DNA of 12,327 nucleotides. Source: Nocardia rhamnosiphila NBRC 108938. Lineage in GTDB: Bacteria; Actinomycetota; Actinomycetes; Mycobacteriales; Mycobacteriaceae. The stretch covers positions 1-12,327 of the forward strand of contig NZ_JOAJ01000022.1 of the NCBI RefSeq assembly GCF_000720425.1, written 5' to 3'. Shown one piece after another: positions 6,801 to 12,327 of the stretch (its first letter is position 1; the number at the start of each line of letters is the position of its first letter). The position numbers and the translations under genes are program-made. The notes beneath the pieces were generated by a model. It did not search any database. It saw nothing but the letters and a program-made list of their open reading frames with translations, and was not told the origin of the DNA.

Positions 6801-9249
6801 ATTCGTCACCCAGCAACTCACGCTGCCACATCGCGTAGTCGGCGTACTGCACCGGCAACGGCGCCCACCCCGGAGCTTCCCCGGCCGTACGCGCCACATA
6901 CGCGGTCATCAGATCCCGCGTCAGCGGAGCCACCGACAAGCCGTCACCGGCGATATGGTGCACCACCATCGCCAACACGAATTCGTCCACCGCGTCGCCG
7001 ATATCCGATCCGGCACCGGCCGCTGCGGCGTCCACCCGGAACAGGGCCACCCGCATCGGCACCTCGGCCGTCACATCGAAACCGGCCGACGCCAGCTCCG
7101 CCACCGCCGAGACTTCTTCCCCCGCCGCAACCGAACCCACCCGCAACCGCGGCGCGGCCTCACCGACCGGCAACACCACCTGCACCGGACCCGATTCGGT
7201 CTCCGGATACACAGTCCGCAACACCTCGTGCCGCGTCACCAGATCCGCGACGGCGGCACGCAGGGCGTCCACATCGAGCGCACCCGACAACCGGATCGCC
7301 ATCGGAATGTTGTAGGCGACCGACTCCGGATCGAACCGGTTCAGGAACCACATCCGCTGCTGCGACAACGACAACGGCACCCGCTGCGGCCGCTCCCGCG
7401 CCACCAGCGGCCGATGGCCGCCGGATCCGCTCAGCTCGGCCAGCCGTTCGGCGAACTCGGCCACCGTCGGCGCCTCGAACAGCACCCGTGCCGGAATCCG
7501 GGCGTCCACCGTGGCACCCAACCGGCCCGCGACCTGGGCGGCGATCAGCGAATTACCGCCGAGTTCGAAGAAATCGTCGTCCGCGCCGACCGGATCGACG
7601 GGATTCAGCAGATCAGCGAAAACAGCCGCGACCTGCTTCTCCAACGGGCTGTCCGGCGCCCGGTACGCCTTGGTCCGCAGCTGCGGTTCGGGCAGCGCGC
7701 GGCGATCGACCTTGCCGCCCGGAGTAAGAGGGATCTCGTCGAGGACGGTGATACTCGCCGGAACCATGTACGCGGGGAACCGGCTCGCGGCCAGCGCGAG
7801 CAGCTCGTCGGGGTCGACAGCGGCCCCGGCGGCCGGATGCACATAGCTGGCCAGGACGGTCGCGCCGCTGGAGGGCTCATAGCCGACGGTGACAGAGAAA
7901 TCCACCGATTCGTGTGCGGCCAGTACGGCGTCGATCTCACCGAGCTCGATCCGGAAGCCACGGATCTTCACCTGGAAGTCGTTGCGGCCCACATATTCCA
8001 GTGACCCGTCGGCCAGCCAGCGCACCAGGTCGCCGGTGCGGTAGAGCCGGGAGCCGTCCTCGGCGAACGGGTTGGCCACAAAACGTTCCGCGGTCGGCCC
8101 GGGCCGGTTGCGATAGCCGCGCGCCAATTGGGCACCGCTGATATAGAGTTCGCCCGTCACGCCGGTCGGCAGTGGGGAAAGCCGTTCGTCCAGGACGTAT
8201 TCGGTGATACCGCGGGTCGGCGCGCCGATGCTCACCGGCTCGTCCGGCTGCATCGGGTCACTGATATTGACCGCGACCGTGGTCTCGGTCGGGCCGTAGG
8301 CGTTGAAGAACTCCCGCGGACGCCCATCCGCCGCGGGAACGGCCCAGCGCCGCACCAGGTCCGGCGGGCACGCTTCACCGCCGGTGATCACGACACGCAG
8401 ATCGTCCAGGCCCGCCGGATCGATCGAGGCCAGCGCGGCCGGCGTGACGAAGGCATGGGTCACCCCTTCGCTGCGCAGCAGCCCGGCCAGTTCGTCACCG
8501 CCGTACACCGTGGGCGGGACCACCACCATGGTCGCCGCGCCGCCCAGCGCCAGCAGCAGTTCCAGCACCGAGGCGTCGAAGGAGGGGGAGGCGAAGTGCA
8601 GGGTACGAGCGGTCGTGTCGACGCGATACCGTTCCCGCTGCTCGGCGCAGAACCCGGCCAGCCCGGCCTGCGTGATCACCACGCCCTTCGGCGTCCCGGT
8701 CGAACCCGAGGTGTAGATGATGTAGGCCGGATGCTCGGCGCGCAGCGGCCGCAGCCGCTCGTCGAAGGACACCGGTTCGGCCGAGTACTGCGTGAGGCCG
8801 GCAGCGATCTCCGCGCTGTCGATGGAGACCCACTCCACCCGACCGGGCAGTCCGGCGGACGATTCCGTGACGGTCAGTCCGAGGACGGCACCGGAATCGA
8901 TGACCATATGTGTGACGCGGTCCACCGGATAGGTCGGGTCGACGGGTACATAGCCGGCGCCGGTCTTGGCCACCGCCCATACCGCGACCACCGATTCGAT
9001 CGAGCGGGTGATCCCGACCGCGACCAGATCCTCGGGCCCGATACCGCGGGCGATGAGCAGCCGGGCCAGCCGGTTGGAGCGTTCGTCCAGTTCGGCGTAG
9101 GTGAGCCGGCCGAGGTTACCGGTGGCGTCGGCGTAGCTGATCGCGACACCCGAGGGATTGGTCTCGACCGCCGTCGCCATGAGCTGGGGCAGGGTGGTCC
9201 CCCTGGGCCGCCGGGTTCGGGTGGGTCGTGTGCGCGCCGTTCGGGTCAT
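1..9249 (-). CDS. Non-ribosomal peptide synthetase, A-T-C-A-T-C-A-T-C(partial), 3' end outside window
   Basis: A cytoplasmic multimodular enzyme that activates amino acids as adenylates, loads them on phosphopantetheine carriers and joins them. The frame is open without a stop for 3083 codons. Approximate residues: Arg-rich tail 1-18, A1 20-525, T1 530-605 (Ser567), C2 612-1090, A2 1096-1610, T2 1620-1695 (Ser1656), C3 1703-2180, A3 2190-2705, T3 2715-2790 (Ser2750), C4 2796 to the edge. Start: the ATG at 9249-9247 is preceded by AGGAAG with a 10-base spacer, and an in-frame TGA at 9276-9274 leaves no earlier start codon. All three A domains have the TSGSTGxPKG loop, YGPTE and the GKxDR lysine; every C domain has HHxxxDG. 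The protein starts with A, not C, and follows a gene that ends in C plus an A-like relic, so the two probably act in sequence. No epimerisation or thioesterase domain is seen. Product unknown. Confidence 0.97.
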   Translation of the reverse strand, partial: MTRTARTRPTRTRRPRGTTLPQLMATAVETNPSGVAISYADATGNLGRLTYAELDERSNRLARLLIARGIGPEDLVAVGITRSIESVVAVWAVAKTGAGYVPVDPTYPVDRVTHMVIDSGAVLGLTVTESSAGLPGRVEWVSIDSAEIAAGLTQYSAEPVSFDERLRPLRAEHPAYIIYTSGSTGTPKGVVITQAGLAGFCAEQRERYRVDTTARTLHFASPSFDASVLELLLALGGAATMVVVPPTVYGGDELAGLLRSEGVTHAFVTPAALASIDPAGLDDLRVVITGGEACPPDLVRRWAVPAADGRPREFFNAYGPTETTVAVNISDPMQPDEPVSIGAPTRGITEYVLDERLSPLPTGVTGELYISGAQLARGYRNRPGPTAERFVANPFAEDGSRLYRTGDLVRWLADGSLEYVGRNDFQVKIRGFRIELGEIDAVLAAHESVDFSVTVGYEPSSGATVLASYVHPAAGAAVDPDELLALAASRFPAYMVPASITVLDEIPLTPGGKVDRRALPEPQLRTKAYRAPDSPLEKQVAAVFADLLNPVDPVGADDDFFELGGNSLIAAQVAGRLGATVDARIPARVLFEAPTVAEFAERLAELSGSGGHRPLVARERPQRVPLSLSQQRMWFLNRFDPESVAYNIPMAIRLSGALDVDALRAAVADLVTRHEVLRTVYPETESGPVQVVLPVGEAAPRLRVGSVAAGEEVSAVAELASAGFDVTAEVPMRVALFRVDAAAAGAGSDIGDAVDEFVLAMVVHHIAGDGLSVAPLTRDLMTAYVARTAGEAPGWAPLPVQYADYAMWQRELLGDESDPESIAAAQLAYWQSALAGVPDQLDLPTDRARPAVQSFAGGRVEVTVDAEIHAGLQRIAQEQNATLFMVVHAALAVLLARLSGTDDITIGTPVAGRGEQALDDLIGMFVNTLVFRTELDRGESFADLLARQREVDIAAFAHGDVPFERLVEVLDPARSQARHPLFQVGFAFQNLAPSSLELPGLTVSGLDFDTAIAQFDLNLDLGDSYDESGAPLGVAGYLTYATALFDHTTVQGFADRFVRLLAAVVADSSVPVGDLEILAPVERTRVLEQWNATAYPFTPRLLLEGFDRAVAAHPDRVAVSFEGTSLSYGEFATRVNRLARVLIAQGVGPESLVGLLVSRSLDLVVGMYAVVAAGGAYVPLDPAHPAERIGYILDTARPACLLSTTIDARTVHGDAVSTDAAGTGELDGVPALFLDTLDTSGFDSAPVTDADRLAPVRPGNTAYVIFTSGSTGRPKGVAVPHSAIANQVAWMLSQYPMGISDVYLQKTATTFDVSLWGFFLPLSVGARLVVATPDGHRDPAYLAQVIAEQQVTVTDFVPSMLTMFAAHTEAGSIPSLRHVFVIGEALPPATVTAMHAVSDAAVHNLYGPTEAAVSITYWQATGAESGSVPIGVPQWNSRVYVLDSRLRPVPAGVTGELYLAGDQLARGYVTRPDLSADRFVASPFDTGRRMYRTGDLVRWQRVGGQPVLEYLGRTDFQVKFRGQRIELGEIESAFLARPEVSQAVVTVAASQLGEQLVAYVVPAPGEQLNSTELLGAVRDVLPTYMVPAAVVGLDAFPLNTSGKLDRKALPAPVFETKEFRAPSTPIEEIVAGVFADVLDVRRVGAADDFFALGGNSLIATQVAARLSAALDTTVAVRSLFETSTVAALAARIQEQAGTGGRAALVAQPRPSRTLLSGETVPAAPLSPAQQRMWFLNRFDAATAAYNLPLAIRLSGGLDVDALRRAVADVVARHEVLRTVYPETESGPVQVVLSAGQAVPQLEVRSVAAGEVAAAVAELAAVGFDVTAEVPLRVALFRVDDAADEFVMVMVVHHIAGDGSSAGPLTRDLMIAYAARAAGEAPGWAALPVQYADYSIWQRDLLGDESDAESPAAQQLAFWQSTLAGVPDQLDLPMDRPRPAVQSFAGRRVELHIDAATHAGLQRLAQQQGATLFMVAHTAFAVLLSRLSGSDDITVGTPVAGRGEQALDDLIGMFVNTLVFRTQLDRGESFTDLLARQREIDIAAFAHADVPFERLVEVINPARSQARHPLFQVGFTFQNLAASSLELPGLTVSGVEIDTENSQFDLNLVLADAYDDSGAAQGVVGYLTYATALFDQETAEGFAGRFTRLLGAIVADPATPVGDFEILAPAERTRVLAEWNATEHAVPAQLLLDGFERAVAAYPDRVALSFEGTTLTYAEFAGRVNRLARLLIAQGVGPESLVGVLISRSIDLVVGMYAVVAAGGAYVPLDPAHPAERIGYILDTAAPVCLLTTTADARAVGIGADGGAGADALAGVPILALDSLDTDRFGSAPVTDADRSAPVRLSNTAYVIFTSGSTGRPKGVAVSHAAIGNQIAWWLAQYRLDADDVYLQKTATTFDVSLWGYFLPLAVGARLVVATPDGHRDAEYLARVIAEQRVTMTDFVPSMLGMFAAHTPAGSIPSLQHVFALGEALPPETVGAMQAISDAAVHNVYGPTEAAVTVTYWQATGTESAGVPIGVPEWNTRVYVLDSRLRPVAPGVTGELYLAGDQLARGYVTRPDLSADRFVANPFDAGQRMYRTGDLVRWRRAETLVEGRPETRPALEYLGRTDFQVKFRGQRIELGEIESALLAQPVVSQAVVTVAASELGEQLVAYVVPAPGEQIVAAALLDALRGVLPVYMVPGAVVVLDAFPLNTSGKLDRKALPAPVFETREFRAPSTPVEEIVAGVFAEVLGVERVGADDDFFALGGNSLIATQVAARLSAALDTKVAVRTLFEASTVAALAAAAESATGRGDMPVLAPRERPERVPLSLAQQRMWFLNQFDTGSSAYNIPLAVRLSGDLDIPALRQAVADVVGRHEALRTIYPAQDGKPYQQVLPVGRAVPDPTPIPVSATELRGRITEVLATGFDVTTEVPSRAAVFQPADGEYVLVFVVHHISTDGWSMGPLIRDLMTAYAARTSGSAPAWTPLPVQYADYSLWQREVLGSEDDPESLVSAQAAYWREALAGLPDELNLPGDRPRPIVPSMAGGTVPFEIDAELHRAVSRLAAEHNATVFMVVHAVLALLLARLSATDDVAVGTPIAGR
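865..4144 (-). other. Elongation module C3-A3-T3, near-duplicate of the preceding module
   Basis: C3 has PLSPAQQRMWFLNRFD, HHIAGDG (residues 1852-1858), GTPVAGRGEQALDDLIG and RHPLFQVGFTFQN. A3 has YVIFTSGSTGRPKGVAVSH (about 2155-2210), HNVYGPTEAAV, YRTGDLVRW, DFQVKFRGQRIELGEIE and NTSGKLDRKALP. T3 has DDFFALGGNSL, Ser2750 (1002-1000). Pocket residues read D, V, W, D, F, L, V, V, T plus lysine, differing from A2 only by Ile/Leu, Leu/Val and Ser/Thr. The two modules therefore probably load the same or closely similar residues. A3 carries about eight extra residues (around AETLVEGRPETRP) between motifs A7 and A8. Sequence identity to the previous module is very high across C, A and T, including a 63-bp exact match at the carrier site. 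Confidence 0.94.
968..1030. repeat. 63-bp exact repeat at carrier site T3 (copy 1)
   Basis: Identical base for base to 4250-4312, at an offset of 3282 bases. It encodes the region around the carrier serine. Identity at silent positions over this length suggests recent duplication or gene conversion between modules 2 and 3 rather than protein-level constraint alone. Confidence 0.85.
4145..7419 (-). other. Elongation module C2-A2-T2
   Basis: C2 has PLSLSQQRMWFLNRFD, the catalytic HHIAGDG (residues 764-770), GTPVAGRGEQALDDLIG and RHPLFQVGFAFQN. A2 has YVIFTSGSTGRPKGV (about 5420-5470), HNLYGPTEAAV, YRTGDLVRW, DFQVKFRGQRIELGEIE and NTSGKLDRKALP. T2 has DDFFALGGNSL, Ser1656 (4284-4282). Pocket residues read by alignment to GrsA and EntF are D, V, W, D, F, I, L, V, S plus lysine. 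The scaffold around the pocket (DFVPSML, VFxxGEALPP, HNLYGPTEAAV) resembles serine-activating EntF, but the positions that read His, Ser and Asp in EntF are Asp, Ile and Ser here, so serine should not be assumed. C2 is about 11 residues longer than C3 just before the catalytic motif, through an Ala/Gly-rich insert. All motifs look active. Confidence 0.94.
4250..4312. repeat. 63-bp exact repeat at carrier site T2 (copy 2)
   Basis: Second copy of the exact match described for 968-1030. The flanking bases also match well, with 81 of 84 positions identical over 4243-4326 against 961-1044. T0 and T1 carry the same protein motif but with several silent differences, so the match is specific to modules 2 and 3. 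Confidence 0.85.
7420..9249 (-). other. N-terminal Arg-rich tail, adenylation domain A1 and carrier T1 (no C domain)
   Basis: The first 16 residues contain seven arginines (MTRTARTRPTRTRRPR), followed directly by TLPQLM, the start of A1. Core motifs seen: WAVAKTGAGYVPVD, YIIYTSGSTGTPKG (8683-8730), NAYGPTETT (about 8283-8307), YRTGDLVRW, DFQVKIRGFRIELGEID and GGKVDRRALPEP. By hand alignment to GrsA the pocket residues are D, A, L, F, I, G, A, V, A plus the lysine, which suggests a hydrophobic residue; the exact amino acid is uncertain. T1 has DDFFELGGNSL with the modified Ser567 (7551-7549). T1 differs from T0, T2 and T3 (EKQVAAVFADLLNPVDP; LFEAPTVAEF). It could be a chain-starting module, but the neighbouring gene's terminal C domain makes a split elongation module likelier. 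Confidence 0.93.
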
Positions 9250-9251
9250 GC

Positions 9252-9302
9252 CTACATCACTTCCTGGTGGTGGTCACACTGCTCACCGACAACCGAACCC
9301 AT
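9252..9302 (-). CDS. Possible 16-residue leader peptide upstream of the NRPS
   Basis: An ATG at 9302-9300 opens MGSVVGEQCDHHQEVM and stops at a TAG (9254-9252) two bases before the NRPS ATG. AAGG lies seven bases before its start. The NRPS ribosome-binding site (AGGAAG) is inside its final codons, the arrangement expected for translational coupling. The peptide has one Cys and a His-His pair, so ribosome stalling on these codons could in principle regulate the NRPS, but no attenuator stem was identified with it. A chance open frame of this length is quite possible in GC-rich DNA. No homologue is recognised. Confidence 0.22.
   Translation of the reverse strand: MGSVVGEQCDHHQEVM
9259..9265 (-). 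promoter_or_regulatory. Ribosome-binding site of the downstream NRPS
   Basis: On the minus strand AGGAAG lies ten bases before the ATG at 9249. Together with the in-frame TGA at 9276-9274 it fixes the start of the NRPS and its short Arg-rich N-terminal tail. Confidence 0.6.
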
Positions 9303-9305
9303 CAA

Positions 9306-9323
9306 CCTGCCTTGCCTGCCTTG
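9306..9323. repeat. 9-bp perfect tandem repeat before the possible leader ORF
   Basis: CCTGCCTTG is repeated head to tail at 9306-9314 and 9315-9323. On the coding strand this reads CAAGGCAGG twice, placing AAGG seven bases before the ATG of the small leader ORF. The repeat therefore supplies a Shine-Dalgarno-like element; it may be chance slippage. Confidence 0.6.
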
Positions 9324-9430
9324 TTCGCTTCCTCCGGCGGTGCACCCGCCGACAGCGGACCGCTACCGACCTGCTGGGCGTACCTCGCGCAGGGCGCGGT
9401 CGATCGCCGCCGGACTCGCCGTCGTCCATC

Positions 9431-9460
9431 ATTACATGGGCCGGAGGTACCCATCTGTTA
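9431..9460. promoter_or_regulatory. Possible operator: imperfect inverted repeat in an AT-richer island
   Basis: ATTACATGGG (9431-9440) and CCCATCTGTTA (9450-9460) form an imperfect inverted repeat with a 5-bp exact core (ATGGG/CCCAT) and a 9-base centre. It is the most AT-rich patch of an otherwise GC-rich spacer and lies about 180 bases before the downstream NRPS start. On the minus strand it contains TAATGA, a weak -10-like hexamer, with no good -35 element. It could be a regulator site or part of a promoter, or chance. It does not resemble an IdeR/DtxR iron box. Confidence 0.2.
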
Positions 9461-9476
9461 CCACCGAGGATGCCGG

Positions 9477-9508
9477 CGCCCGGCGACGCGGCCGGTCGCC
9501 CGGCGACG
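9477..9508. repeat. 12-bp direct repeat overlapping the hairpin arm
   Basis: CGCCCGGCGACG occurs at 9477-9488 and again at 9497-9508, a 20-base period. The second copy includes most of one hairpin arm, so the opposite arm (CGCCGGGCG at 9513-9521) could pair with either copy for nine bases. This gives two competing stems. The pairing is visible in the sequence; any switching function is speculative. Confidence 0.6.
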
Positions 9509-9526
9509 GTGACGCCGGGCGACCGG
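9492..9526 (-). terminator. Perfect GC-rich hairpin 20 bases after the upstream NRPS stop
   Basis: The 14-base arms 9492-9505 (CCGGTCGCCCGGCG) and 9513-9526 (CGCCGGGCGACCGG) are exact reverse complements around a 7-base loop, with 19 bases between the stop codon and the stem. No run of T follows on the minus strand, so it is not a classical intrinsic terminator. GC-rich hairpins without a U tract are common after actinobacterial genes and could terminate, pause or protect the 3' end. If it stops transcription fully, the downstream NRPS needs its own promoter within about 240 bp. Confidence 0.55.
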
Positions 9527-9545
9527 GGCCGCTACACCGGAGGGC

Positions 9546-12327
9546 TCAGTCCAGCAGAGCGCTCAGCTCGAGCATCTGCTCCACCGCTGCCCACGCTCCG
9601 TCCGGCCGGCCCGCCTCCTCCAGGAGAAGCGCGGACAGATCCTCCAGGGCGTCCGGCTCCAAGGCGTCGAGGCCTGCCCGGTCGATCCACAGGTGTGTGA
9701 CCCATTCGTCGCCGAGCGCCGCGCCGGTGACCTCGGGTACGAGCACCACCGCCGCGCCCGCCGCGCCCGCCGCCACGATCTCGGCCACCGCGGCCGGACC
9801 GTTGTTACGGCCGTACCGGAAGGTCCGGGATTCGTAGGTCAGCCCGGTCACGGTGTGCACTTCGGCCACCACGGCGGCCAGCTCGTCGTAGGACAGCACA
9901 CGGCCACCGGCGCCGACGCATACCGGATCGCCGCCCTGTAGCGGCCGCACCCGATCGGCGTAGGTCACCGGACGGGACGACTCCGCCGCGATCTCCGCGA
10001 TACGCGCCGGATCATCCAGCACCAGCCAGTCGACTCCCGGCGCGGCCGGCGGCGCGCCCGCCACGAGGCCGGCCTCGACCGACAGACCCGCGGCCGCGGC
10101 GGCGGACACCGCGTCGGCGGGCACCAGCGCCGCACCCGCCTTGAGCACCGCCCAGGTCGCGACGGCCGCGTCGACCCCGCGTTCGAGCCGCAGCACCACA
10201 CCGGTACCCGGCCCGTACCCGCGCCCGATCAGGACCCGGGCCAGCCGCGACGAACGCGCGTCCAGCTCCTGATAGGAGACCTCTTCCTCACCCCATACCA
10301 CCGCGGGGGCTTCCGGATCGTCCTCCACCGACGCGCGCAGCGTCTGCGGCAACGCGGTACCGGTGGTGGCAGCGGGCGCCACCGGCTGCGCGGGCGCCGC
10401 CATCCGGTCGCGTTCGGCGGTATCGAGGATATCGATCTCACCCACCCGGACCTGCGGGTCGGCGGCCACCGCGGCGAGGATCCGGGCGAACCGGCGACCG
10501 AAGGACTGCACGGTCGATTCGTCGAAGAGGTCGGTGGCGTACCCGAATACCGACCACAGTTCCCCGAAGCCGCCGTCGGCGTCCCGCTGCGGGTCGATAC
10601 CGATCTGGAGATCGAACTTCGCGGCCAGTGCCTGCTCTCCCAGCGCCTGCACACTGAGCCCGGGCAGATCCAGCGTGGGCTGTTCGGTGTTCTGGAAGGA
10701 CAGCACCACACCGAGGAGCGGGTTGTGCGCGGTGGCCCGGCCCGGCAGTACCGCTCCCACCACCTGTTCGAACGGGATATCGGCATTCGCGAATGCCGAG
10801 AGATCCGTCTCCCGGGCCTGCTCCAGCAATTCGGCGAAGGTCATATCGGGTTCCACCTTGGTACGCAACGCCAGGGTGTTGACGAACATACCGACCAGAT
10901 CGTCGAGCTCCTGCTCCCCGCGTCCGGCGATCGGGGTGCCGACCACGACATCGCCGGCGTTGGTGAGCCGGGACAACAGCACGGCCACCGCGGCGTGCAT
11001 CACCATGAACAGCGTGACGCCGTGTGCTCGCGCCGACTCGTCCAGCGAGCGGTGCACCTCGGCCTCGACGGCGAAACTCGTCAGCCCGCCGCGCATCGAC
11101 GGTACCGGCGGACGCGGCCGGTCCAGCGGCAGCTCGACATCCACGGCAACCCCGTCGAGCTGTTTCTGCCAGTACGCCAACTGGCCGGCGGCCGGCGAGG
11201 TCGGGTCGGTTTCGTCACCGACCACCGCACGCTGCCACAGCGCGAAGTCCGCGTACTGCACCGGCAACGGCGACCAGCCCGGCGAATCACCACCGACACG
11301 AGCCAGGTAGGCCGTCATCAGGTCCCGGGCCAGTGGCGCCATCGAGGCACCGTCGGCCGCGATGTGGTGCGCGACGAACGCGAGCACATGTTCGCCGGGT
11401 CCGGTTTCGAGCAGCAGTGCCCGGACCGGCACCTCCTGGGTGACATCGAAACCGACCGACATCAGCTCGCTGATCCGAGCCACCGGATCAGCGGCGGCAG
11501 CGACCTCGAGCCCACTACCGAGAGCCTGCGCGGCCGGCAGGACCTCCTGGTACGGGCGATCGCCGGGGCCGACCGGATACCGCGTCCGCAGCGTTTCGTG
11601 CCGTTCCAGCACATCCGCGACCGCCGCGCGCATGGCGGCGACATCCAGTTCACCCGTCAGCCGGATCGCCAGCGGAATGTTGTACGCGGGCGAACCGGGA
11701 TCGAACTGGTTGATCAGCCACATGCGCTGCTGCGCCAGTGACAACGGCACCAACTCCGGCCGCGGCTGCGGCACCAGCGGCGTCCGCGCACCGGACCCGG
11801 CATGCTGCTCCACCCGCACCGCCAGACCGGCCACCGTCGACGCCTCGAACAGAGCCCGCACCGGGACAGTCGTGTCGAGTGCCTTACCCAACCGCGCCGC
11901 CACCTGCGTCGCGACCAGTGAGTTACCACCGAGCGCGAAGAAATCGTCGTCGGCGCCGACCCGGTCCACCCCGAGCACATCGGCGAACACACCCGCCACG
12001 ATCTCCTCGATCGGAGTCGACGCAGCCCGGAACGCACGAGCCTCGAACACCGGCTCCGGCAGAGCCTTACGATCCAGCTTCCCGTTGACGGTCAATGGGA
12101 GCGCGGACAGTTCCACGAATGCCGACGGCACCATGTACGACGGCAACCGCTGCGCCAGTTCCGACTGGATCCGCCCCGTATCCAACCCGGCCGCACCGCC
12201 GGGCACCACATACCCGACCAACCGATCCCCGGTCCGCGGATCCGACTTCGCCAGCACCGCGACCTGCGCGACCTCCGGCAACGCCAGCAACGCCGCCTCG
12301 ATCTCACCCAGCTCGATCCGGAAACCA
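9546..12327 (-). CDS. Non-ribosomal peptide synthetase C-terminal part: A(end)-T-C-degenerate A, 5' end outside window
   Basis: The 3' end of an upstream NRPS gene; 926 codons plus a TGA stop at 9548-9546, open at the right edge, where the frame enters inside an A domain (GFRIELGEIE, core motif A8). In order (fragment numbering): the C-terminal A subdomain with GKLDRKALPEP near residues 80-90; T0 with LGGNSL, Ser136; C1 from about residue 180 with PLSLAQQRMW and the catalytic HHIAADG (second His at 321); then from about residue 657 to the end an A-like stretch lacking catalytic motifs. C1 reads HNPLLGVV where C2 and C3 read RHPLFQV, so it is the more divergent C domain. No thioesterase follows, so the peptide is not released here; handing on to the next protein, starting 296 bp downstream with an A-T pair, is the natural reading. 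The frame has no breaks, and homology is continuous to near the stop. Confidence 0.97.
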   Translation of the reverse strand, partial: GFRIELGEIEAALLALPEVAQVAVLAKSDPRTGDRLVGYVVPGGAAGLDTGRIQSELAQRLPSYMVPSAFVELSALPLTVNGKLDRKALPEPVFEARAFRAASTPIEEIVAGVFADVLGVDRVGADDDFFALGGNSLVATQVAARLGKALDTTVPVRALFEASTVAGLAVRVEQHAGSGARTPLVPQPRPELVPLSLAQQRMWLINQFDPGSPAYNIPLAIRLTGELDVAAMRAAVADVLERHETLRTRYPVGPGDRPYQEVLPAAQALGSGLEVAAAADPVARISELMSVGFDVTQEVPVRALLLETGPGEHVLAFVAHHIAADGASMAPLARDLMTAYLARVGGDSPGWSPLPVQYADFALWQRAVVGDETDPTSPAAGQLAYWQKQLDGVAVDVELPLDRPRPPVPSMRGGLTSFAVEAEVHRSLDESARAHGVTLFMVMHAAVAVLLSRLTNAGDVVVGTPIAGRGEQELDDLVGMFVNTLALRTKVEPDMTFAELLEQARETDLSAFANADIPFEQVVGAVLPGRATAHNPLLGVVLSFQNTEQPTLDLPGLSVQALGEQALAAKFDLQIGIDPQRDADGGFGELWSVFGYATDLFDESTVQSFGRRFARILAAVAADPQVRVGEIDILDTAERDRMAAPAQPVAPAATTGTALPQTLRASVEDDPEAPAVVWGEEEVSYQELDARSSRLARVLIGRGYGPGTGVVLRLERGVDAAVATWAVLKAGAALVPADAVSAAAAAGLSVEAGLVAGAPPAAPGVDWLVLDDPARIAEIAAESSRPVTYADRVRPLQGGDPVCVGAGGRVLSYDELAAVVAEVHTVTGLTYESRTFRYGRNNGPAAVAEIVAAGAAGAAVVLVPEVTGAALGDEWVTHLWIDRAGLDALEPDALEDLSALLLEEAGRPDGAWAAVEQMLELSALLD
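9549..10362 (-). other. Degenerate, C-terminally truncated adenylation-like domain (A*) at the NRPS C-terminus
   Basis: About 270 residues that align end to end with the N-terminal two thirds of A1. Shared landmarks: TLPQ, SYQELDARSSRLARVLI, TWAVLKAGAALVPAD (A2 motif), DWLVLDDPARIAEIA, RPVTYADRVRPL, then a VTHLWIDRAGLDALEPD segment matching VTHAFVTPAALASIDPA of A1. Where A1 has YIIYTSGSTGTPKG, A* has only CVGAGGRVLSYDEL, so the ATP-phosphate loop is gone. Where A1 has SPSFDASVLE, A* has RNNGPAAVAE, so the Asp that holds the substrate amine is lost. The domain ends before the YGPTE motif, and A6-A10, including the catalytic lysine, are absent. It cannot adenylate. The frame is intact and keeps GC-rich codon use, which argues for a kept structural or docking role rather than fresh decay. 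That role is inferred. Confidence 0.88.
10425..11795 (-). other. Condensation domain C1, last functional domain of the upstream NRPS
   Basis: Forms the peptide bond between the chain on T0 and the next aminoacyl carrier. Visible motifs: PLSLAQQRMWLINQFD at the start, ETLRTRYP, the catalytic HHIAADGASMAPL (second His encoded at 11366-11364), PVQYADFALWQR, GTPIAGRGEQELDDLVG with MFVNTLALRT, and a divergent HNPLLGVVLSFQN. The catalytic His and Asp-Gly are intact, so it should be active. No functional A-T follows it in the same protein; its acceptor is probably T1 of the next protein. Whether it takes an L- or D-configured donor cannot be decided by eye. No epimerisation domain precedes it in the visible part. 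Confidence 0.9.
11800..12326 (-). other. Domains: end of adenylation domain A0 and carrier domain T0
   Basis: Only the A8-A10 part of A0 is inside the window, so its substrate pocket cannot be read. The A10 lysine is in LTVNGKLDRKALPEP, encoded near 12055-12100. The linker and carrier (STPIEEIVAGVFADVLGV, then DDFFALGGNSL) end in the phosphopantetheine-bearing serine encoded at 11921-11919. T0 is closer in sequence to T2 and T3 (shared EEIVAGVFA, VGADDDFFALGGNSL, LFEASTVA) than to T1. That is consistent with the split between the two proteins falling next to a different kind of A-T unit. T0 would carry the peptide donated to C1. Confidence 0.93.

Follow-up and report, generated by a model that had tools for sequence, protein, structure and literature searches.

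The contig NZ_JOAJ01000022.1 of Nocardia rhamnosiphila NBRC 108938, analysed here in its entirety (the window, 12,327 nucleotides), raises the question why a nonribosomal peptide synthetase (NRPS) should end in half of an adenylation (A) domain directly ahead of the gene for the next NRPS. The minus strand of this contig carries two NRPS genes. The upstream NRPS (NRPS-I; 926 codons within the window, 12326-9549, TGA at 9546-9548) ends in the order carrier (T) domain, condensation domain (C1) and truncated A domain, the last of which is here called A*. The next NRPS (NRPS-II; 3083 codons within the window) starts with a 16-residue Arg-rich tail, followed by A1-T1 and then by C-A-T-C-A-T-C. A preliminary description of the sequence had offered two roles for A*, preservation of the C-A interface of C1 or docking of A1-T1 of the partner protein. 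Gene neighbourhood, charge, tree clades, dead partner domains and constraint, all read from sequences, favour the second role, and AlphaFold models and the linker speak against the first. We consider it reasonably probable, from sequence comparison and structure models, that A* is a docking domain derived from a dead adenylation half-domain and docks the tail and A1 of the next subunit.

In such an arrangement, the acceptor of C1 at the end of NRPS-I would be aminoacyl-T1 of NRPS-II, which would require both proteins to come together at a C/A junction. A flexible linker would connect C1 to the acidic A*, which in turn would bind the Arg-rich tail together with the N-terminal A1 half; the heterotypic A*:A1 pair would hold A1-T1 within reach of C1. 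The proposal builds on direct support for the anatomy of A*, its dead motifs, predicted fold, distribution, gene neighbour, charges, single origin and selection.

Anatomy and distribution of A*

A* (9549..10361; all window features given here lie on the minus strand) consists of the 271 residues at the C-terminus of the upstream NRPS (residues 656-926) and represents the N-terminal half of an A domain. Its start had been placed at 10362 and is corrected here to 10361. Homology and motif alignment identify it as a C-terminal, catalytically dead domain that retains the part preceding A5 and lacks the ATP loop, A5 and A6-A10. As the preliminary description had claimed, A* aligned collinearly with A1 of the next protein (BLASTP, 31% over 286 columns, E 2.7e-27). 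Upon alignment to a model built from 28 intact A domains of related lines, the ATP-loop, A4, A5, A7, A8 and A10 motifs were not found in the A* of the window: GDPVCVGAGGRVLSYDEL (9879..9932) occupies the place of the ATP loop TSGSTGTPKG of A1, and the FDxS region (A4) is unconserved. The Pfam profile AMP-binding (PF00501) matched with 59.6 bits (cut-off 29.9), covering only profile positions 2-83 of 384; A* thus belongs to this family by homology and is devoid of its catalytic motifs (ATP loop, A5, A8-A10). Deposited structures similar in sequence to A* were A domains of NRPSs and related enzymes.

The proposed partner, A1 (7672..9201), has every core motif intact (TSGSTGTPKG at 8683-8712, YGPTE, NDFQVK, GGKVD), and T1, directly after A1, likewise has all its motifs (LGGNS at 7549-7563). 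The N-terminal half of A1 (8320..9201), homologous to A*, is the putative partner surface. The preceding Arg-rich tail of NRPS-II, MTRTARTRPTRTRRPR (9202..9249), has a net charge of +7 and may form part of the docking site. Within A*, the motif DEWVTHLW (9687..9710) includes Trp875, which is kept in 92% of A* domains and is replaced by Arg or Gly in most partner A1s, making it a candidate contact residue.

Two trivial explanations were rejected. When A* was used as query against its own genome, other A domains scored at most 104 bits and a second true A* scored 354 bits, ruling out a chance match to a generic A domain. A sequencing frameshift, already dismissed in the preliminary description, and an assembly error are likewise ruled out because other assemblies share the same end; the A* of Nocardia fusca (L009/L113), from a separate assembly, is 97% identical over the whole domain and ends in an identical way.

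The second A* of the genome is 68% identical over 281 residues and ends another NRPS, which is again followed by an A-first NRPS gene. Among 148 Nocardia genomes, matches to A* occurred in 144 at E<=1e-35 and in 137 at E<=1e-50; of the 144, seven with E 1e-37 to 1e-46 possibly represent ordinary A domains. The frame stopped 0-39 bases past the match at each of the 31 A* loci inspected in the own genome and in Nocardia genomes. For other genera, 39 high-scoring loci were picked by hand, 36 of which represent A* at the end of a frame without ATP loop or A5; the three lowest-scoring (L109-L111) are ordinary A domains. A C-terminal A* was read directly in Nocardia, Rhodococcus, Prescottella, Antrihabitans, Aldersonia and Millisia. 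Searches of the order and the class scored the best six candidates per genome, so that rarer or more distant A* domains could escape. The order-wide search matched 20 of 397 genomes, every one within the own family, and the class-wide search 20 of 394, seven of them outside the family, where the best locus of each has an ATP loop. No fusion of A* and A1 in a single frame was seen by eye among the listed matches in Nocardia and other genera. The wide occurrence across Nocardia (strong matches in 137 of 148 genomes) and other genera rules out a sporadic relic, an outcome that would have spoken against a function.

Altogether, 192 sequences were examined, among which 125 distinct A* domains were recognized. 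These derive from loci chosen by match to the A* profile, and the sorting rule itself asked for a C-terminal position and the absence of ATP loop and A5. Since sorting used end position and motif loss, independence from the definition of A* applies only to the results on gene neighbour, charge, tree and selection. One true A* (L162) was misfiled through a chance pattern match.

Neighbouring gene, charge, origin and selection

The preliminary description had raised the question whether each C-terminal A* end is followed by a gene starting with A-T. Among the 118 A* domains with at least 700 bases of downstream sequence, 110 were followed on the same strand within 1500 bases by an A-first frame; in the window, the gap between both NRPS genes measures 296 bases (9250..9545). 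The eight exceptions are L071 (a misfiled fragment), L145 and L148 (cut or broken frames), L073, L077, L171, L173 and L174. In the genomes of L073 and L077, a basic-tailed A-first NRPS gene is located 11 and 18 kb off on the opposite strand. Instead of the next NRPS, A* might bind a tailoring enzyme, a chaperone, some cell structure or an MbtH-like protein. Proteins of the latter kind use A domains as binding platforms, and the few A* domains without adjacent partner would fit such a role. However, the MbtH-binding part of A domains probably lies C-terminal to the portion retained by A*, and the A-first gene in 110 of 118 cases would be left unexplained, so that we regard another target as quite unlikely.

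The charges on both sides of the junction are opposite. The 30 residues preceding partner A1s carry a mean charge of +7.1 (n=111, range +2 to +11), compared to -3.3 for internal C-A linkers (n=138) and -4.4 for C-A* linkers (n=125). The mean net charge of A* itself is -22.9 (n=125), compared to -10.5 for the corresponding region of ordinary A domains (n=241) and -9.3 for that of partner A1s (n=111). Eight NRPSs of the own genome that start with a C domain (L254-L258, L263, L264, L266) showed no such Arg-rich tail by eye, and the tail used as query against this genome gave strong matches only to the two A* partners.

A FastTree phylogeny was calculated from 376 domains (121 A*, 108 partner A1, 13 other N-terminal A, 126 internal A and 8 from other families or distant genera). 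All 121 A* domains and the misfiled L162 formed a single clade with a support of 1.0, which contained no internal or A1 domain. A* and the N-terminal A domains together fell into a clade of 246 tips (support 0.97) that included 238 of these 242 domains and, besides L162, seven internal domains; the partner A1s by themselves formed no clean clade. A previous tree that included fewer internal domains agreed with this result (support 0.92 and 0.77). These clades indicate that A* arose once and that N-terminal A domains are its nearest relatives. A* and A1 are probably the products of a duplication of one A domain, at the point where an ancestral C-A module split into two genes.

Selection was estimated as the ratio of nonsynonymous to synonymous substitution rates (dN/dS; Nei-Gojobori, medians over pairs with dS 0.1-1.2) for lines of the window type and for those resembling a second NRPS pair of the own genome, termed C5-type. 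In window-type lines, the median was 0.306 for A* (77 pairs), 0.182 for C1 (78 pairs) and 0.245 for A1 (65 pairs); in C5-type lines, it was 0.306 (104 pairs), 0.385 (105 pairs) and 0.117 (104 pairs), respectively. The neutral dN/dS that the preliminary description had named as refuting evidence was not obtained in either line type, and the values point to purifying selection that is weaker than on the catalytic neighbours of the live line. A* might nevertheless be a passive remnant that dates back to a single fixed gene fission and persists only for lack of any process eliminating it. The single origin is consistent with one old fission, and in window-type lines dN/dS of A* exceeds that of C1 and A1. 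However, dN/dS is about 0.31 over 181 pairs with no full-domain value above 0.52, residues of A* are invariant across genera and part of them are specific to A*, and its acidity was acquired relative to A1. A passive remnant therefore appears very unlikely.

Several observations weigh against docking by A*. Its lower constraint relative to C1 and A1 in window-type lines is one of them. Distance correlations were mixed for A*-A1 versus A*-C1 (Pearson r 0.74 versus 0.62; Spearman 0.70 versus 0.80), and swap comparisons were concordant in 6 of 10 cases. One internal C-A linker is as highly charged as +9. Three short A* domains of about 250 residues in Nocardia (L171, L173, L174) have no A-first gene downstream; basic-tailed A-first genes occur elsewhere in the genomes of L171 and L173 (L242, +4, and L247, +5), and that of L174 has two (L235 and L250, +7 each), of which L235 appears to adjoin another A*, judged from its match with the tail of L127. 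Conversely, the first protein of the C5-type pair (L038 position 6807) and its relatives L250-L252 combine a basic tail and an A start without an A* gene just upstream, so the basic tail is not exclusive to A* junctions. Finally, the charge of A* did not correlate with that of the tail (rho 0.13, p 0.21). This would also be expected if A* mainly provided length or solubility and its acidity were a solubility adaptation without a specific partner, an explanation that we consider barely credible in view of the predicted ordered fold, the invariant residues and the association with basic-tailed A-first genes.

Predicted arrangement of C1-A* and known NRPS junctions

C1 (10440..11777) is a condensation domain with an intact HHIAADG motif at 11349-11369, and the HHxxxDG motif is intact in 108 of 116 C1 domains with enough sequence. 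It is connected to A* by a linker (10362..10439) that is Ala/Pro-rich toward its end and lacks the Trp-Asn signature of many C-A linkers. AlphaFold predictions were based on alignments of 90 out of 97 and 90 out of 96 prepared sequences, with one best model each. C1-A* was modelled with a mean pLDDT (predicted local distance difference test) of 90 and a pTM (predicted template modelling score) of 0.62, a stretch of the linker falling below 50. A* was predicted to adopt a well-folded alpha/beta A-like structure (mean pLDDT mostly 84-98); the absence of any fold, named in the preliminary description as a possible objection, was not what the model returned.

Since C-A platforms are established in NRPS structures, C1 might depend for its folding or rigidity on an A-like body at its C-lobe, with A1-T1 finding C1 by other means. 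The position of A* after C1 corresponds to the covalent order of an ordinary module, C1 has mostly kept its HHxxxDG motif, and the rank correlation ties A* distances closer to C1 than to A1. An ordinary C-A fragment from the second NRPS of the window, cut at a similar point and modelled with 90 sequences, reached a pLDDT of 93 and a pTM of 0.82 and was set canonically, deviating from solved C-A modules by 4.9-6.7 Å root mean square deviation (rmsd) over 684-725 residues (13 comparisons). The C1-A* model, in contrast, deviated by 21.7-24.5 Å over 670-714 aligned residues (14 comparisons), indicating that C1 and A* are not predicted to be set as in solved modules. The linker signature W[N/A/S] was absent from all 118 C-A* linkers and present in 68 of 137 internal C-A linkers. 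With due caution, the models argue against a kept C-A platform; the low pTM amounts to an absent prediction, and C1 and A* may still touch. The platform would also leave the acidity of A*, the basic partner tail and the retained dead A1s described below unexplained, and we regard it as improbable. Keeping the native C-A linker is stressed in the part of PMC8097286 that was available.

The comparisons with known systems given here refer to the accessible parts of the cited papers. NRPS docking elements have been classified as COM (helix-hand), PAX three-helix bundle and beta-hairpin (PMC9113145). Like the proposed A*-tail pair, all of these combine a C-terminal element of one subunit with an N-terminal element of the next, and charge often aids specificity. 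They are, however, short helices or hairpins at epimerization/condensation (E/C) or carrier/C junctions (PMC9113145), whereas A* is a predicted folded half A domain of ~270 residues located after C, and the N-terminal element of the present lines would be an Arg-rich tail plus A1. In particular, the junction is C/A, with C1-A* followed by tail-A1, and not the E/C junction, short helix and C-domain N-terminus of COM; nor is there a two-helix element after a carrier as in PAX, since A* comes after a C domain and its predicted fold is alpha/beta. In the beta-hairpin class, an N-terminal hairpin takes up a short C-terminal motif; the N-terminus of NRPS-II consists of the 16-residue Arg-rich tail followed by A1.

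Inactive A domains have been described in other contexts. In the albicidin, ramoplanin and enduracidin systems, an inactive in-line A domain is helped in trans by a separate A-T protein, and that of ramoplanin requires an N-terminal extension of about 300 residues for complementation (PMC8949500). These lines share with the present ones a dead A domain after C and an aminoacyl-T supplied by another protein. There, however, A-T stands alone and the main line continues (PMC8949500), while here the truncated A* ends the protein and A-T opens the next multi-module NRPS. Module 2 of fungal SidD also keeps a truncated inactive A domain (dA), but dA is internal and misses ~290 N-terminal residues (PMC10192304), whereas A* is C-terminal and keeps the N-terminal half, the remainder being missing. 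By analogy only, the inactive/active adenylation pairs of ubiquitin E1 likewise unite two copies of one adenylating domain, one dead and one live, as proposed for A*:A1; E1 differs in fold and chemistry and is a single enzyme, whereas A*:A1 would join two NRPS subunits. The C-A*/tail-A1 arrangement is not described in the accessible parts of PMC9113145, PMC8949500, PMC10192304, PMC4035055, PMC5550956, PMC8097286 and PMC6563249. Searches of open-licence PMC papers likewise gave none that describes a C-terminal truncated A domain as docking element; the subscription literature may differ.

If A* does dock A1, NRPS subunits could be joined between C and A through a half A domain minus its catalytic motifs. 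This would represent a third docking place within a module and provide ready-made orthogonal connectors for assembly-line engineering. Annotation tools that count A* as an A domain would overpredict these lines by one residue, and truncated A domains at protein ends would signal line order.

Dead partners and the C5-type NRPS pair

In some lines, the partner A1 has itself lost its catalytic motifs. At two Nocardia loci (L136 and L138), the next protein consists of the tail and the N-terminal half of A1 without ATP loop, immediately followed by an intact A-T; this order recurs at L078, from another genus, where A1 is more decayed. Between L136 and L138, dN/dS for this one pair was 0.33 for the dead A1 part, 0.12 for the intact A, 0.42 for A* and 0.12 for C1.

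A larger case is the C5-type NRPS pair of the own genome, two proteins of about 3,400 and 3,100 residues (L038:6807-17081 and L112:1-9414; G000:C5:290806-310782). Its A* is 68% identical to that of the window-type line, and the tails are nearly the same. The pair is intact in two of 15 orthologues (L199, L205). In the other 13, protein 2 has lost every ATP loop, HHxxxDG motif and detectable carrier domain, and protein 1 has lost most of them, retaining a single carrier and a central A domain that is partly or wholly intact. Dead orthologues are located at L193-L198, L200-L204 and L206. Over its whole length, dead protein 2 had a dN/dS of 0.26 and 0.32 in two sets of six species. Its first 250 columns, which comprise the tail and the N-terminal half of A1, had values of 0.08 and 0.09, the lowest of the full windows along the protein; one short end window (three pairs) gave 0.06. 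In five intact window-type lines, the same stretch had a dN/dS of 0.22. As the first 250 columns evolve slowest, the best-kept part of a catalytically dead protein is the part proposed to meet A*.

Taken further, A*:A1 would constitute a new docking class in several genera, and in part of Nocardia the same system would hold together the dead NRPS pair, which would act as a decoy, a scaffold or a partner without catalytic activity and might cross-dock with the live line of the window type. We consider this combined scenario rather doubtful. Whether docking elements can persist after catalysis is lost becomes testable with this largely dead yet conserved pair.

A few further observations were made on these lines. 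Both frames of the dead C5-type pair are open in 13 species, with dN/dS of about 0.26-0.33. The 13 dead-pair genomes also carry a window-type line, and the two intact-pair genomes (G050, G137) show no window-type A*; these are related species and not independent cases. Ser/Thr-rich NRPS clusters are common to Nocardia according to the accessible part of PMC4035055, and the NRPS genes of the window may belong to them. N-terminal A domains with a decayed ATP loop were also found at L140 and L191 (Nocardia panacis) and at L162 (Nocardia altamirensis), and that of L191 continues into another A domain.

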